Below are positions 48,975-55,562 of a DNA stretch of 64,000 nt, piece after piece (the stretch's first letter is position 1; every line of letters starts with the position of its first letter). Source of the DNA: Desulfotignum sp. (GTDB taxonomy: Bacteria > Desulfobacterota > Desulfobacteria > Desulfobacterales > Desulfobacteraceae); contig JAABSA010000002.1 in the NCBI GenBank assembly GCA_011390635.1, forward strand, positions 62,308 through 126,307, in the 5' to 3' direction. Under the pieces are notes generated by a model. That model was given only the letters and a program-made list of their open reading frames with translations. It did not search any database and was not told the origin of the DNA. A program made the translations under genes and the position numbers.

Positions 48975-49487
48975 TTACCGGTCCCCCTGGTAGGGATACC
49001 AGTCCGATTCTCTGAGCCGATCCACTTTCAGGGTCAAAATTTCACAGGTCAGGGTGTTGAAAACAATTTTACGGCCCAGTCTGCCCCCCACATCCTCGGA
49101 TACAATGCGAATATTTTTTTGCATCAGAATGTCTTTGGCTGTCTGGTAATTCTGTTTGCCGACATTGTGGATACAGGTATCCGTGTTGTTGGCGCCGCCA
49201 AATATCTGGGCTTCCAGATGAAAGGGATCTGCCCCTTGGCTGATCATCATCCGTATCAATGTAATGACGGCGATATTACCATAGAGGGCCGTGGTTTTTT
49301 CCCTGCTTTCGGCAACCGGGAACAGAAAATGGTTCATCCCCCCGGTTTTGCGTTTTTTATCATACAGACTCACCGCAACAGATGAGCCCAGAACCGTTGA
49401 AATAACCGTGGGTTTTTCCGGCAGGTAAATATATCCCGGCTTGAGAAAATAATCCCGGGTAACCAGTGTTTCAGAATTGTTTTCCAT
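48975..49487 (-). CDS. cheD: Chemoreceptor glutamine deamidase CheD
   Basis: TVISTVLGSSVAVSLYDKKRKTGGMNHFLFP, AQIFGGANN. Confidence 0.9.
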   Translation of the reverse strand: MENNSETLVTRDYFLKPGYIYLPEKPTVISTVLGSSVAVSLYDKKRKTGGMNHFLFPVAESREKTTALYGNIAVITLIRMMISQGADPFHLEAQIFGGANNTDTCIHNVGKQNYQTAKDILMQKNIRIVSEDVGGRLGRKIVFNTLTCEILTLKVDRLRESDWYPYQGDR

Positions 49488-49648: not shown

Positions 49649-50617
49649 ATGGAAAATCATTTTCCAGACATCCGTATCGGACATTTAAAAATTGTGGACC
49701 ACCTGCTTCCGGGCATGGCAGCTGCTCTCCCCGGACTGGACAGTCAAGTGCCCTGGCGCCTTATACCGGTTCCCATGCAGTCCTGGGATGAAATCTGTGA
49801 TGGCCTGCAAAATGAAACCATTCATGGCGCATGTATCACCACCCCGCTTGCCCTTAAATTATTCGGCACAGGCATGGATATCCGGCTTCTCATGTTTGTC
49901 CACAGATCCGGCAGTCTCATGGTTAAAAGCCGGAAAGCCAATATCCGATCTCTGTCGGACTTTACAAAAAAATCTGTTTTGATTCCGGAAAGTTTTTCCG
50001 TCCAGGCCATGCTTTTGCACAAGATGTTTGCCGATGCAGGGCTGGTTCTTGGACCCCACGACCAGCCAGACACGCAGGTCAAATGGGAAATGGTCCCCCC
50101 CCATCTCATGCCGGACATGCTTCTGGCTGAAGATGATATAGCTGATGATGATCCGGCCCTCGGCGGGTTCATGGCGCCCGAACCCTTTGGCAGCCTGGCA
50201 GTACTGCAGGGGCAGGCTGATCAGGTCTGTATTTCGGACAGCCTCTGGAAAAACCATCCCTGCTGCGGATTGGTGGTCACCGGACATTTTTTACAAACAT
50301 ATCCGCAAATACCCGGGTCTCTGGTAGCACATTTTTTTAACACCGCTCGACACCTCGAACAAAAAGACACGTTGGAACTGGTTTCCCATGCAGCTGATTT
50401 TCTTGGCCAGGATCCGGTGCTTGTAAAGGCTGTTCTCCGGCACAGCAGGGTAAGTTTTGCCCCAAAGACACTGGTGCCGGATACAGCTGCCATTGACATG
50501 ATACAACACTATATGATTGATGCCATGAAGATTATGCCCCAAAAAATTGATCTGGACAGTTTTGTGGACAACTTCTGGGCACAAAAAGCCCTGACGGAAA
50601 CTTGCAGTGAAAATTGA
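49649..50617 (+). CDS. NrtA/SsuA (NMT1-like) binding-protein-like protein lacking a signal peptide
   Basis: IRIGHLKIVDHLLPGMAAAL...HGACITTPLALKLF...SLWKNHPCCGLVVTGHFLQTYP; the N-terminus has no hydrophobic signal segment. Confidence 0.75.
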   Translation: MENHFPDIRIGHLKIVDHLLPGMAAALPGLDSQVPWRLIPVPMQSWDEICDGLQNETIHGACITTPLALKLFGTGMDIRLLMFVHRSGSLMVKSRKANIRSLSDFTKKSVLIPESFSVQAMLLHKMFADAGLVLGPHDQPDTQVKWEMVPPHLMPDMLLAEDDIADDDPALGGFMAPEPFGSLAVLQGQADQVCISDSLWKNHPCCGLVVTGHFLQTYPQIPGSLVAHFFNTARHLEQKDTLELVSHAADFLGQDPVLVKAVLRHSRVSFAPKTLVPDTAAIDMIQHYMIDAMKIMPQKIDLDSFVDNFWAQKALTETCSEN

Positions 50618-51374
50618 TATTGAAAAAATCACCAAAACCTATTCTGATGCAAGAAAACCCGACCACGTAGTATTACAGGATGTTTCCTTTGCCATTGCGT
50701 CTGGTGATTTTGTCATTATTCTGGGGGAATCCGGATGCGGGAAAACCACCCTGCTCAACCTTCTGGCCGGTCTTGAACTTCCCACCAAAGGCAGTATACG
50801 CGTGGATGGTGACATTATAACCGGTATCCACCCATCCCGGTCCATGCTGTTCCAGCAGCCGGCACTGCTTCCCTGGCTCACCGTCCGGGATAATGTTGCC
50901 TATGGCTGCAACATCAGAAATGACACAGACAACCTGGATTACCGGGTCAACCAGTTTCTGGAAATCATGGGCCTTGCGGGATTTGCAACCGCCCGTCCAG
51001 GTCGGCTGTCCCTTGGCATGGCCCAGCGGGTCTGCCTGGCCAGGGCATTGGTCGGGCATCCTGAGGTCCTTTTGCTGGATGAACCTTTTGCATCACTGGA
51101 CACCTTTACCCAGGCCCATATTCAGGAAGAACTGGTCAACCTGTGGCTGTCGGAAAACTTTACTGCTGTTTTTGTGACCCATGATATTGACGAAGCCATC
51201 TACCTGGGCAATAAAATCATTCTTCTGGCCGGAGATCCAGCCAACATCGCTGAGATCTTTGAGGTAAAACAAAGCTACCCCAGGGACCGGAACCATCCCG
51301 GATTCAAACAGATCCGAAACAACATTCTGGACCGGTTTAAAAATGCCTATCTGGCCAAAAGGACATTGTTGTAA
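50607..51374 (+). CDS. ABC transporter ATP-binding protein (SsuB/TauB/NrtD-type)
   Basis: GESGCGKTTLLNLLAGLELPTKGSI, LSLGMAQRVCLARALVGHPEVLLLDEPFASLD. GTG start overlaps the upstream gene. Confidence 0.95.
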   Translation: MKIDIEKITKTYSDARKPDHVVLQDVSFAIASGDFVIILGESGCGKTTLLNLLAGLELPTKGSIRVDGDIITGIHPSRSMLFQQPALLPWLTVRDNVAYGCNIRNDTDNLDYRVNQFLEIMGLAGFATARPGRLSLGMAQRVCLARALVGHPEVLLLDEPFASLDTFTQAHIQEELVNLWLSENFTAVFVTHDIDEAIYLGNKIILLAGDPANIAEIFEVKQSYPRDRNHPGFKQIRNNILDRFKNAYLAKRTLL

Positions 51375-51375
51375 T

Positions 51376-52560
51376 ATGCATACCCATACCGGCAAACCCC
51401 CTTTGTGTGCAATAACCCGGCGGCAATTTCTGCAGACGGCTGCCACTGCCTGTTCCAGCCTGGCATTTGCCCGGACCGTATCTGCAAAAAAGCCGAAACT
51501 CCGCCTGGGGTATCTGCCCATCACCGATGCCACCCCGCTGCTGGTGGCCCATGGACTGGGATATTTTTCCCAGGAAGGACTGGATGTTGAACGTCCTGTC
51601 ATGGTCAGGTCCTGGAACATACTCACAGAATCTTTTATGGCAAATAAATTTGATATCACCCATATGCTCTTTCCTATCCCGATATGGATGCGGTTCAAAC
51701 AAAACCTGCCTGTCCGTGTGCTGGCATGGGACCACACCAACGGCAGTGCGGTAACCGTAAGGGGGGATTCACCCATCCAGAACTTTTCAGATCTGGGGGG
51801 CAAGCAGGTGGCGGTGCCTTCCTGGTATTCCATGCACAATCTGGTGCTTCAACTGGGATTGAAAACCCGGGGACTGACCCCGGTAATCCAGCCCCAGTCA
51901 GCGCCTGTAAAACCCCATGAAGTCAATCTTTTTATCCTTCCCCCCCCGGATATGCCCGCAGCCCTTCTCGGCAGCAAAGTGGATGCCTTTATCGTAGCAG
52001 ACCCTTTCAATGCCCTGGCTGAACTGCGGTTCAATGCCAGGATCATGCGGTATACCGGAGATATCTGGAAAAACCATCCCTGCTGCGTCATTGTGGCAGC
52101 CCAGCCGTTTATTGACCAGCACCCGGTGGTGGTGCAAAAAGCCGTCAATGCCATTATCCGGGCCCAGGCCTGGTGCCGGAAAAATCCCAGAGAAACCGCC
52201 CATCTTTTGAGCCGGGATGGAGAACGCTACCTGCCGGTGCCTGAAGAAGTACTGCTAAAGGTTTTTGAACCCCCTGACCCGGCACAACTGGTCCATCCCC
52301 ATTGGGATGTTCCCCGCATTGATTTTCAACCTTTTCCCTTTCCCTCGGCAACCCGGTTCATCATAGAACAGATGAAAACCACCCGGGTGGAAGGAGACAC
52401 CGCATTCCTGACAGCACTGGATGCAGGCCAGGCAACCCGGGATCTTGTGGATGACCGGTTTGTCTTAAAGGCAATGGATGAAACGGGGGGAATGGCACCT
52501 TTTTGCGACTGCAATATGACATTTCCCTATGAAAGAGAAGAAACCGTTGAAATCACCTGA
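51376..52560 (+). CDS. Tat-signal ABC transporter substrate-binding protein (NrtA/SsuA-like)
   Basis: ITRRQFLQTAATACSSLAFARTVSA Tat-type signal; LRLGYLPITDATPLLVAHGLGYFSQEGLDVE; IWKNHPCCVIVAAQPFIDQHP. Confidence 0.92.
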   Translation: MHTHTGKPPLCAITRRQFLQTAATACSSLAFARTVSAKKPKLRLGYLPITDATPLLVAHGLGYFSQEGLDVERPVMVRSWNILTESFMANKFDITHMLFPIPIWMRFKQNLPVRVLAWDHTNGSAVTVRGDSPIQNFSDLGGKQVAVPSWYSMHNLVLQLGLKTRGLTPVIQPQSAPVKPHEVNLFILPPPDMPAALLGSKVDAFIVADPFNALAELRFNARIMRYTGDIWKNHPCCVIVAAQPFIDQHPVVVQKAVNAIIRAQAWCRKNPRETAHLLSRDGERYLPVPEEVLLKVFEPPDPAQLVHPHWDVPRIDFQPFPFPSATRFIIEQMKTTRVEGDTAFLTALDAGQATRDLVDDRFVLKAMDETGGMAPFCDCNMTFPYEREETVEIT

Positions 52561-53377
52561 TCGTTTCACATACCGCAACCCAAAACAAATGGGACTTACT
52601 GTCATTTTCACCCCCCAGGCATTTGGATTTCGCTATGAACTTATCGGGCTGGCCCTTTTTGCTGCTGCCTGGGCTTTGGTTTCCTATTTTGTGTTTACCC
52701 GGCCCCAGTTCAGCCAGTTTCAGGGATTTTTGCCAGGCCCCACCTTCAAGGCACTGATGTCGGCATTCACAGATGAACGCTTCTGGCTCTCGGTATTCAC
52801 AAGCCTTCGGCGGGTTGTGGTGGGGATTTCTCTGGCGGCATTTTTTGGTTTTCCCCTGGGGATTCTGGTGGGGTTTTATCCCGGGATCCGGGGATTGTCC
52901 TACTCCGCCATCCAGTTTGTGCGCATGATCAGCCCTTTGTCCTGGATGCCCATAGCCCTGCTCTTATTTGCAAGCTTTGAATCAGCCGTATATTTTTTGA
53001 TTGTAATGGCAACCATTTGCCCTATAATACTGAATACAGCTATCGGGGTGCGCAATATCCATCCCCAGTGGGTAAAAATGGCCATGAACCAGGGAGCAAA
53101 CAACTACCAGCTCATCAAAACCATTGTTATGCCATCTTCTGTGCCCCATTTGCTCACAAGCCTGAGACTGGCTCTGGGAGTGGCCTGGATTGTGCTTGTA
53201 CCGGCCGAATTTTTAGGGGTGTCCTCCGGACTGGGATACCTGATCAATGATGCAAGGGATACAATGGAATATGACAAACTCATGGCCATGATCATTGCCA
53301 TCGGTATCCTGGGTTTTGCCTTGGACCGGTTGTTTCAAAAACTCCAGCAGACATTGCGCTGGTCCTGGAATGAATAA
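52529..53377 (+). CDS. ABC transporter permease (SsuC/TauC-type)
   Basis: FTSLRRVVVGISLAAFFGFPLGILVG, MNQGANNYQLIKTIVMPSSVPHLLTSLRLALGVAWIVLVPAEFLG. Confidence 0.95.
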   Translation: MKEKKPLKSPDRFTYRNPKQMGLTVIFTPQAFGFRYELIGLALFAAAWALVSYFVFTRPQFSQFQGFLPGPTFKALMSAFTDERFWLSVFTSLRRVVVGISLAAFFGFPLGILVGFYPGIRGLSYSAIQFVRMISPLSWMPIALLLFASFESAVYFLIVMATICPIILNTAIGVRNIHPQWVKMAMNQGANNYQLIKTIVMPSSVPHLLTSLRLALGVAWIVLVPAEFLGVSSGLGYLINDARDTMEYDKLMAMIIAIGILGFALDRLFQKLQQTLRWSWNE

Positions 53378-53427
53378 TAATGATAAAGAAACACAATGAT
53401 GAAAATAAACCTTAAGGAGTTTTTTCA

Positions 53428-54804
53428 ATGGCGGTAAATCCTGATATTAAAATTGTGGTGGCGGATGATTCAGGCACCATGCGTATCATGTTCAAACAGA
53501 TCCTTGCCAAAGCCGGGTATACCAATCTTGTGATGGCGGTCAACGGTGCAGATGGACTGGAAAAGGTACAAACCGAAAAACCGGACCTTGTGATCAGTGA
53601 CTGGAACATGCCCCGGATGGACGGGTTGGAATTTTTGCAGGCATTACGCAAACTGGATGAATTCAGGGATCTGCCATTTATCATGGCCACGGCCCAGTCC
53701 GACAAAGGCCAGCAGATCGCCATCACACAAGCCGGGGGCAATGGCCATGTTCCCAAGCCTTTTGACCAGGACCAGATCAGCCGGGCCATTGACCGCGCAT
53801 TTTCCGGTGAAAAAGCACAGCCTGCCGTCAAAACAAGGCAAAGAAGCATCATGGGCGACCGGGTGGAACTGAATGTGGCCCATATCCAGATCACCGACCA
53901 TCTGGCGCTGGGGGCCCTCAAGCACCGGATTGAAACAGGCGATGTGGAACCCCGGTATTTTGATTTGACTACCAGCCTCAAGGCAGGGTGGAATCCCATC
54001 CAGGAGGGACTGGAATCCGGAGAAATCGACTGTGCCTTTGTACTGGCACCCATTGCCATGGACCTGTTTGCCTACGATTCTCCCATCCGCCTGGTTTTGT
54101 TTGCCCACAAGAACGGCAGCACCTTTGTCAGATCCCGCCACTATGACCACAGGTTTGATTCACTCCAGAGTTTTTACAAATACAAAGTGGTGGATATCCC
54201 CCACAAAATGTCCATTCACCACATGCTGGCCCATCAATTTCTCAAGGAGCTGGGGCTTAAACCAGGGGTTCCCGGTAAAAAAGCCATCAACGTAAGGTTC
54301 GAGGTGGTACCCCCAGTTAAAATGCCCCAGATCATGAAGGAAAATGAAGACGTGGCAGGGTTTATGGTTGCTGAACCTGTTGCCACCAAAGCCATTGCCG
54401 CCCAGGTGGGAAATCTGGAATTTTATTCGGCAAGCCGCTGGGATAACCATCCCTGCTGCATCGTGGCCATGCAGGAGGATTTCATCCAGCAGCATCCTGA
54501 TGCGGCCCAGGAATTTGTATCCCTGCTGGTGGAAACCGGTGAATATATTGAAGATGACAAAAGCCGTGCCGCCGGCATTGCGGTTGATTTTTTAGACCCC
54601 CAGGGAACCCTGGGACTCAACCCGGAGGTATTGAAAAATGTGTTTTCCCAACCCCAGGCCATACGGTGGGACGGCCTTTATCCCGAGACCGCAGACCTGG
54701 ACAAAATTCAACGCTACATGCATGATGTAATGGACATCGGTAAACTTATTGATCTGGAAAAATTCATTGAACCCCGTTTTGCCAATACCGCCTACAACAT
54801 TTAG
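53428..54804 (+). CDS. CheY-type receiver domain fused to NrtA/SsuA-like binding domain
   Basis: REC: IVVADDSGTMRIMFKQILAKAGY...DLVISDWNMPRMDGLEFLQ...FIMATAQ...GHVPKPF (DD, D, T, K conserved). C-terminal part parallels ORF 49649: LNVAHIQITDHLALGALK...FAHKNGSTFVRS...SRWDNHPCCIVAMQEDFIQQHP. Confidence 0.9.
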   Translation: MAVNPDIKIVVADDSGTMRIMFKQILAKAGYTNLVMAVNGADGLEKVQTEKPDLVISDWNMPRMDGLEFLQALRKLDEFRDLPFIMATAQSDKGQQIAITQAGGNGHVPKPFDQDQISRAIDRAFSGEKAQPAVKTRQRSIMGDRVELNVAHIQITDHLALGALKHRIETGDVEPRYFDLTTSLKAGWNPIQEGLESGEIDCAFVLAPIAMDLFAYDSPIRLVLFAHKNGSTFVRSRHYDHRFDSLQSFYKYKVVDIPHKMSIHHMLAHQFLKELGLKPGVPGKKAINVRFEVVPPVKMPQIMKENEDVAGFMVAEPVATKAIAAQVGNLEFYSASRWDNHPCCIVAMQEDFIQQHPDAAQEFVSLLVETGEYIEDDKSRAAGIAVDFLDPQGTLGLNPEVLKNVFSQPQAIRWDGLYPETADLDKIQRYMHDVMDIGKLIDLEKFIEPRFANTAYNI

Positions 54805-55509
54805 ATGCAAGGAGTCACATCCATGAAAATCACTGATCCGCAAGTCATTAAAAACGGAGAAAATGATCTGATTGCATCCGTACAGAAAAATCTTGATCAG
54901 GATATTATAAAAAAAATCATCACCGATCGTATGGCCGGGACAGCGCTTGTGTCAAAGGGTGGACAGATTGTGGTCCATGACAACCAGGTTGCATTTCGCA
55001 TGGATTTTGATCTGCAGTTAAGCGGCAGCCTTTTGTTTGACCGGCAGGGCAATTATATTCCCGATGGTTCAGATCCGCAAACAGCGCGCCATACTCTGGA
55101 TACTGATCTGGAACCGCTGGAGGCAAATGACCTGGACACAGCACAGCCGGATGCTGAAGAAGATCTTGCCCGGGCCGATCTTGACCGGGATACTGAAGAT
55201 GCTTCTGAATCAGACTCCCCGACAGAGCCGGATACCCATCTGCCGAATGCACCCCTGGATGCTCCCGACGACAATGATCTGGATACTGCTGATCTGGATT
55301 CCGATGATACGGCGGATGAAGATCTGAGCAATGAAGCGCTGACCGGTGAAGTATTGAACGGTGAAGCGCTTGATGACGACGATCTGGAATTTGGCAGTCT
55401 GGATCTGGAAGAAAACAATGATACCGACCAGGACGACATGCTGGATGAAGACATAAACGATATTCTAAAAGAAAGCCGTGAGTTCTGGGAACAAAAAAAA
55501 GACCTTTAG
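54805..55509 (+). CDS. Uncharacterised protein with strongly acidic low-complexity C-terminal half
   Basis: About 80 aa ordered N-terminus, then an Asp/Glu/Leu-rich tail (DLDTADLDSDDTADEDLSNEALTGEVLNGEALDDDDLEFGSLDLEENNDTDQDDMLDEDIND). Immediately follows the CheY-fusion gene. Confidence 0.75.
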   Translation: MQGVTSMKITDPQVIKNGENDLIASVQKNLDQDIIKKIITDRMAGTALVSKGGQIVVHDNQVAFRMDFDLQLSGSLLFDRQGNYIPDGSDPQTARHTLDTDLEPLEANDLDTAQPDAEEDLARADLDRDTEDASESDSPTEPDTHLPNAPLDAPDDNDLDTADLDSDDTADEDLSNEALTGEVLNGEALDDDDLEFGSLDLEENNDTDQDDMLDEDINDILKESREFWEQKKDL

Positions 55510-55518
55510 AAACGATAA

Positions 55519-55562
55519 AAACACCTGTCAGGCAGTGATGCGCCTGACAGGTGTTTTTTTTT
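55519..55562. terminator. Strong terminator between the ABC/CheY operon and ahcY
   Basis: AACACCTGTCAGGC-agtgatgc-GCCTGACAGGTGTTTTTTTT. Confidence 0.9.

Follow-up and report, generated by a model that had tools for sequence, protein, structure and literature searches.

Within a 64,000-nucleotide stretch of DNA from Desulfotignum sp. (the window), we found a gene whose product joins a CheY-type receiver (REC) to an NrtA/SsuA-type solute-binding domain (SBP). For this fusion, termed REC-SBP, we put at roughly 60% the probability that ligand sensing by the SBP half in the cytosol changes the phosphorylation state of the CheY-type half, or its partner binding, in a CheA pathway. More tentatively, and at somewhat less than even odds, we propose that importer binding proteins relocated to the cytosol and joined to a CheY-type receiver, with CheW also present in sister lineages, form a new soluble class of chemosensory input through which the CheA array would read an internal nutrient pool without a chemoreceptor, with a Cys-less CheD homolog and an acidic protein as possible dedicated partners. 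Input to chemotaxis normally passes through membrane receptors, sometimes by way of periplasmic binding proteins. If the proposal is true, cells would navigate by a solute they have imported rather than by outside conditions, and REC-SBP, a response-regulator architecture present in many sulfate reducers, would provide a defined genetic system for how metabolic state enters the Che array. Cytosolic SBP-type sensors (NasS and the NrtC/CmpC domains) and CheV are already known; a covalent union of an SBP with a CheY-type REC was not found described, and neither were the CheW-fused relatives or the conserved operon, in the open papers searched (subscription journals and preprints lay outside this search).

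REC-SBP is encoded by a single unbroken open reading frame of 458 codons (53428-54804, + strand), and direct reading places a Shine-Dalgarno-like AAGGAG (53414-53419, +) 8 nt 5' of its ATG. The receiver spans residues 9-121 (53452-53790, +; Pfam Response_reg, E 3.3e-26) and the binding domain residues 145-458 (53860-54801, +; NMT1_2 match at residues 147-381, E 1.1e-26), with both scores well over the curated Pfam cut-offs. This is exactly the 458-residue, two-domain frame described in a first-pass annotation made from the sequence alone. The best NCBIfam match of the receiver is CheY, at a score under that model's cut-off. The receiver carries the phosphorylation residues D13, D14, D58, T88, and K110 together with an SDWNMP motif, and the SBP half carries the pocket motifs HIQITDH, GWN, HKNGS, PHxxSxH, PPxxMP, VAEP, and WxxHPCC. 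No Sec, Tat, or lipoprotein signal was found in REC-SBP. The receiver, starting at residue 9, occupies the N terminus, and the ATG is the earliest start downstream of the previous in-frame stop, which excludes an upstream signal peptide, barring an unusual start codon. These sequence features support the predicted cytoplasmic location, also proposed in the first-pass annotation.

An AlphaFold model of REC-SBP was built from 31 family sequences (mean pLDDT 89.5, pTM 0.86). The modeled N-terminal part matched CheY (1e6m) with a TM of 0.93 on target, 1.1 Å, and 38% identity, and thus the receiver fold occurs together with the acidic pair, the phospho-acceptor Asp, the Thr/Ser, and the Lys. CheY is the closest receiver by both sequence and fold and a counterpart for the SDWNMP motif; it is a single-domain protein, whereas REC-SBP has two domains. 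The modeled C-terminal part has the two-lobe SBP fold in addition to the NMT1_2 family profile, so the possibility raised at the outset that this part is not an SBP did not hold. Its closest SBP structure is 3un6 (TM 0.88 on target), and other matches in the fold search include the C-terminal regulatory domain of CmpC (9uai/9uak), NrtC (8wm7), NrtA (2g29), TauA, and SsuA. REC-SBP therefore resembles the periplasmic NMT1_2 proteins NrtA, SsuA, and TauA in its fold and cleft motifs but differs from them in having no export signal, a predicted cytosolic location, and a fused REC.

The fusion is found in 28 of the 59 whole genomes near the window's genome, and since same-family orthologs are 72-97% identical across their full length, it is not a product of chance. 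A scan with the SBP half, using one genome per species, returned 241 relatives, of which 80 loci from named genomes were kept. The full REC-SBP frame is present in 79 of these 80 independent loci, with the remaining locus (L066) having been removed by the overlap filter in ORF picking. This rules out a sequencing or annotation artifact, and the frameshift or stop between the domains that the first-pass annotation had allowed for was not seen. Of the 79 fusion loci, 40 belong to ABC operons, 10 encode a CheW domain at the C terminus, and 29 fit neither class; in 11 of the latter, a gene for a stand-alone cytosolic SBP lies directly upstream of REC-SBP. The carriers are mostly Desulfobacterales but also include metagenome bins labeled Spirochaetes, Latescibacterota, and Melioribacteraceae, and such bins are the source of the Spirochaetes and Melioribacteraceae occurrences.

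Across 90 distinct family proteins, which diverge to about 42% identity, the receiver residues D14, D58, T88, and K110 are invariant and position 13 is Asp or Glu, in line with the conserved DD/D/T/K set noted earlier. At the position that we take to correspond to Tyr106 of CheY, most members have His (69/90). Invariant residues in the SBP part include H152, I155-H158, W188, N189, H227, G230, S231, P258, H259, S262, M299, E316, P317, W338, and the HPCC stretch (341-344), and this part of the fusion is more conserved than the REC part.

In a midpoint-rooted tree, a rooting that leaves the direction of CheW gain versus loss unfixed, the window protein falls in a 50-row clade made up chiefly of ABC-operon forms (support 100/100). 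It is nested in a larger clade, with 72 rows of two-domain proteins (support 100/99), and the CheW-bearing forms fall outside this larger clade. Three copies from che clusters (L048, L049, and L099) branch within the ABC-operon clade, and therefore REC-SBP genes have relocated between che clusters and importer operons.

The pattern of conservation bears on what the SBP half does. In one alternative, the domain is a mere protein-interaction output switched by REC phosphorylation, with no small-molecule binding left. Protein-binding outputs are common among response regulators and the REC is intact, yet we judge this to be improbable: the cleft motifs equivalent to the NrtA contacts are invariant in all 90 proteins despite divergence to about 42% identity, the SBP part has diverged less than the REC, and the cleft residues agree with those of the exported SBP encoded in the same operon. 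The exported protein matches the consensus in 45% of the columns that are invariant in REC-SBP versus 14% of the other columns, and it has the Trp, the His, and the HPCC stretch as in REC-SBP in nearly all of 43 sequences. The first-pass annotation had offered two readings, an intracellular sensor coupled to a phosphorelay or chemotaxis and a binding protein repurposed as a response-regulator output. The second is the less likely one, as REC-SBP keeps the pocket motifs and has them in common with the operon's exported SBP. Since conserved columns tend to agree among any relatives, the shared motifs are support, not proof, that REC-SBP and the exported SBP may bind the same solute.

It is extremely improbable that the SBP-fold half is an enzyme like Thi5 or DszB with the HPCC cysteines as catalytic residues. 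Thi5 and DszB share the fold and appear among the fold-search matches, and the Cys pair is invariant (90/90), but both enzymes rank under true binding proteins at 11-13% identity. In addition, the operon's exported SBP carries an identical Cys pair, and thus the pair need not signify catalysis. The best SBP match, 3un6, was crystallized with zinc and has a Cys pair at the equivalent place; beyond this match, nothing connects zinc to REC-SBP.

The ligand is not deducible from the neighboring genes. The first-pass annotation named nitrate, sulfonates, thiamine precursors, and aromatics as candidates; of these, nitrate, as the ligand of a NasS-like sensor, is disfavored. NrtA contacts nitrate through Trp102, Gln155, His196, Gly240, and Lys269 (PMC13204499). 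Using profile alignments, and with the numbering of the 2g29 chain taken to differ from that of NrtA by a constant 29, a value that we infer, Trp102 maps to W188 (90/90 family proteins), His196 to H264 (89/90, a placement that depends on where the alignment gap is put), Gly240 to A315, and Lys269 to C344 (90/90), with Gln155 unplaced. As the equivalent of Lys269 has been lost to an invariant Cys, nitrate is unlikely. In the NasS-NasT system, a cytosolic NrtA-like SBP without a signal sequence is paired with a CheY-like REC protein and senses an intracellular solute, and NasS keeps the nitrate-coordinating residues (PMC3795266). REC-SBP is similar in its pairing of domains but differs in that NasS and NasT are two separate proteins and the output of NasT is an RNA-binding ANTAR domain, whereas REC-SBP is fused and has no ANTAR. 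It also differs in the nitrate-coordinating set, of which the alignment shows the Trp102 and His196 equivalents to be kept and a Cys at the Lys269 position.

REC-SBP is the fifth gene of a six-gene ABC importer operon, as the first-pass annotation had placed it, in which all genes lie on the same strand with overlaps or short gaps. The first gene encodes cSBP1, a stand-alone NMT1_2 binding protein of 322 residues without a signal peptide (49649-50617, +; Pfam E 2.7e-18) that shares 33% identity with the SBP half of REC-SBP. It is followed by a 255-residue NrtD/SsuB/TauB-like ABC ATPase (50607-51374, +; Pfam and NCBIfam), an exported NMT1_2 binding protein with a Tat-type leader (RRQFL; 51343-52560, +; Pfam), whose start is the mechanical first start of the frame and overlaps the preceding ATPase gene, and an NrtB/SsuC/TauC-like permease (52529-53377, +; Pfam and NCBIfam). 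Immediately after REC-SBP lies a gene for an acidic protein of 234 residues (54805-55509, +), and a terminator-like stem-loop past it (55517-55558; an 18-pair stem and then a T run) is the probable end of the operon. A CheD homolog is encoded divergently from the operon (48975-49487, −; Pfam CheD, E 3e-22). The second cytoplasmic SBP at 49649-50617 and the identity of the divergent gene as a CheD homolog without the catalytic Cys were absent from the first-pass annotation. The arrangement recurs in Desulfospira, Desulfobacula, Desulfobacter, Desulfamplus, Desulfotignum, and others, the cultured strains Desulfospira joergensenii DSM 10085 and Desulfobacter vibrioformis DSM 8776 among them, and many of these loci also keep the CheD homolog and upstream ABC1/UbiB-like and acyl-CoA dehydrogenase-like genes (named from sequence). 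A further leaderless binding protein, cSBP2, is encoded elsewhere in the window's genome after an IspD-looking gene (L038:7864-8805, +); in L039, L040, and several more loci, the cSBP2 gene immediately precedes REC-SBP.

This setting gives rise to the main rival explanation, in which REC-SBP is a detached regulator of the ABC importer that senses the solute, docks on the ATPases, and gates uptake, with the REC adding phosphorylation control. We consider it rather unlikely, and it is compatible with sensing in a CheA pathway. In its favor, the NrtD-like ATPase of the operon has no C-terminal regulatory domain or extension, the regulatory domains of NrtC and CmpC rank near the top in the sequence and fold comparisons with REC-SBP, and two genes of the CheW-bearing form adjoin an NrtD-like ATPase, one of them also near a permease. 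The CmpC domain senses intracellular nitrate and gates transport (PMC13249358). The NrtC/CmpC domain is an SBP-fold sensor in the cytosol that derives from the binding protein of an importer, as REC-SBP is proposed to be; it is fused to the C terminus of an ABC ATPase, whereas the SBP of REC-SBP is fused to a CheY-type REC and to no ATPase. Against a role at the importer, many homologs have no nearby ABC genes, with some instead in che operons or joined to CheW. In addition, the copies found in che operons fall within the ABC-operon clade, which indicates that REC-SBP persists away from importer genes.

Sensing in the CheA pathway, the reading that we prefer, draws on links between the family and chemosensory genes, and this comparison strongly supports the chemosensory part of the first-pass interpretation. 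Fifteen relatives are REC-SBP-CheW fusions (in the six that were run through Pfam, CheW had E values between about 1e-30 and 1e-36), and a model of one of them shows three folded domains with a mean pLDDT of 84. REC-SBP genes also occur in or beside che operons. L049 has the order CheA-hemerythrin-CheD-HDOD-CheY-CheX-CheB-CheR-CheD homolog-REC-SBP, L048 has REC-SBP between two CheA genes with a histidine kinase and CheX nearby, L129 has CheA-CheR-[REC-SBP-CheW], and in L045 an MCP gene precedes REC-SBP. Genes of the che type lie within about 6 kb in only 4 of the 29 loci outside the ABC-operon and CheW classes and in only 2 of the 10 CheW-form loci of the same 80-locus set. CheV is a CheW-REC hybrid coupling protein (PMC6759762). 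Both of its domain types are found in the REC-SBP-CheW proteins of sister lineages, although in reversed order and with a ligand-binding domain between them, whereas the window protein has no CheW domain by Pfam.

At the genome level, CheA is encoded in 28 of 28 genomes with the fusion versus 18 of 31 without (Fisher p 6e-5), and FliM in 24 of 28 versus 12 of 31 (p 4e-4), in tests that ignore relatedness and genome size. Within the family, CheA accompanies the fusion in 24 of 24 genomes versus 6 of 12 without it. In the CheW-form genomes G053 and G057, CheA is present and FliM is absent, and thus the output need not be swimming. The window's genome has an orthologous CheW-MCP-CheA-HDOD-CheB operon (67% identity to L049 for CheA, 73% for HDOD, and 81% for CheB). 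No REC-SBP copy lies in this operon, on which the window gene could therefore act in trans. Separately, the divergent CheD homolog is the only che gene beside the window's importer operon, with no kinase, MCP, or CheW adjacent. This absence of an adjacent CheA, along with the histidine kinase-REC gene that adjoins the L048 copy, would fit an orphan two-component regulator that has an ordinary histidine kinase as its partner and no role in CheA signaling. We regard that as very improbable given the CheW fusions, the che-operon copies, and the conserved CheD homolog.

In the mechanism that we propose, REC-SBP would be a cytosolic receptor derived from the binding protein of an ABC importer. Its SBP domain would bind the solute brought in by the co-encoded importer, and the opening and closing of the SBP would be passed to the fused CheY-type receiver, which presumably gets its phosphate from a CheA belonging to the cell's chemosensory system. 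Changes in the level of the imported solute may then raise or lower the phosphorylation, binding, or lifetime of the CheY-like signal, with a resulting change in swimming or in some other Che output. Where sister lineages carry a CheW domain, it would let the module sit directly in the CheA array, like a CheV with a ligand-binding domain.

The genes that flank REC-SBP may encode its partners. Canonical CheD has its catalytic Cys in the motif LGSC, and in the Thermotoga protein this residue is reportedly Cys27, with His44 17 residues on. The CheD homolog in the window fits the family profile but reads LGSS, with Ser likewise in 24 of 24 other operon-linked copies among the matches listed (two genomes occur twice). 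This homolog, divergent to the ABC operon, is found immediately before REC-SBP in che operons, where the copies adjoining REC-SBP (L049 and L099) have Gly at the catalytic position. The canonical CheD paralogs in L049, L094, and L099 keep the Cys (LGSC), and the His is retained in the Cys-less homologs. Replacement of the Cys while the His is kept suggests a conserved pseudo-deamidase retained for binding, and REC-SBP is its possible partner. For CheD of Bacillus subtilis, binding is more important than deamidase activity, and CheD-CheC binding is tighter with phosphorylated CheY (PMC3513319). The acidic-protein gene comes after REC-SBP across the ABC-operon loci, and its product has no match in Pfam or NCBIfam. 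By alignment, the protein has a conserved N-terminal region of ~80 residues, a long acidic linker, and a conserved C-terminal motif (DINDILKESREFWEQKK / ILKESREFWEQKK). This layout recalls CheZ, whose C-terminal peptide binds CheY-P.

Several minor observations were made in related genomes. In G021, FliM appears as two pieces separated by about 2 kb (C1:1196585-1198999) and is possibly interrupted. A divergent REC-SBP of 505 residues in the same-genus genome G007 (L045:92-3932, +) follows genes for an MCP-domain protein and a [NiFe] hydrogenase small subunit, a neighborhood that hints at an energy-related signal. Lastly, a REC-SBP-HATPase_c_2-STAS protein (L044:8452-10770, −), the tree position of which is unsure because of its long branch, adjoins a CheA-REC hybrid and represents a third output on the same sensor module.
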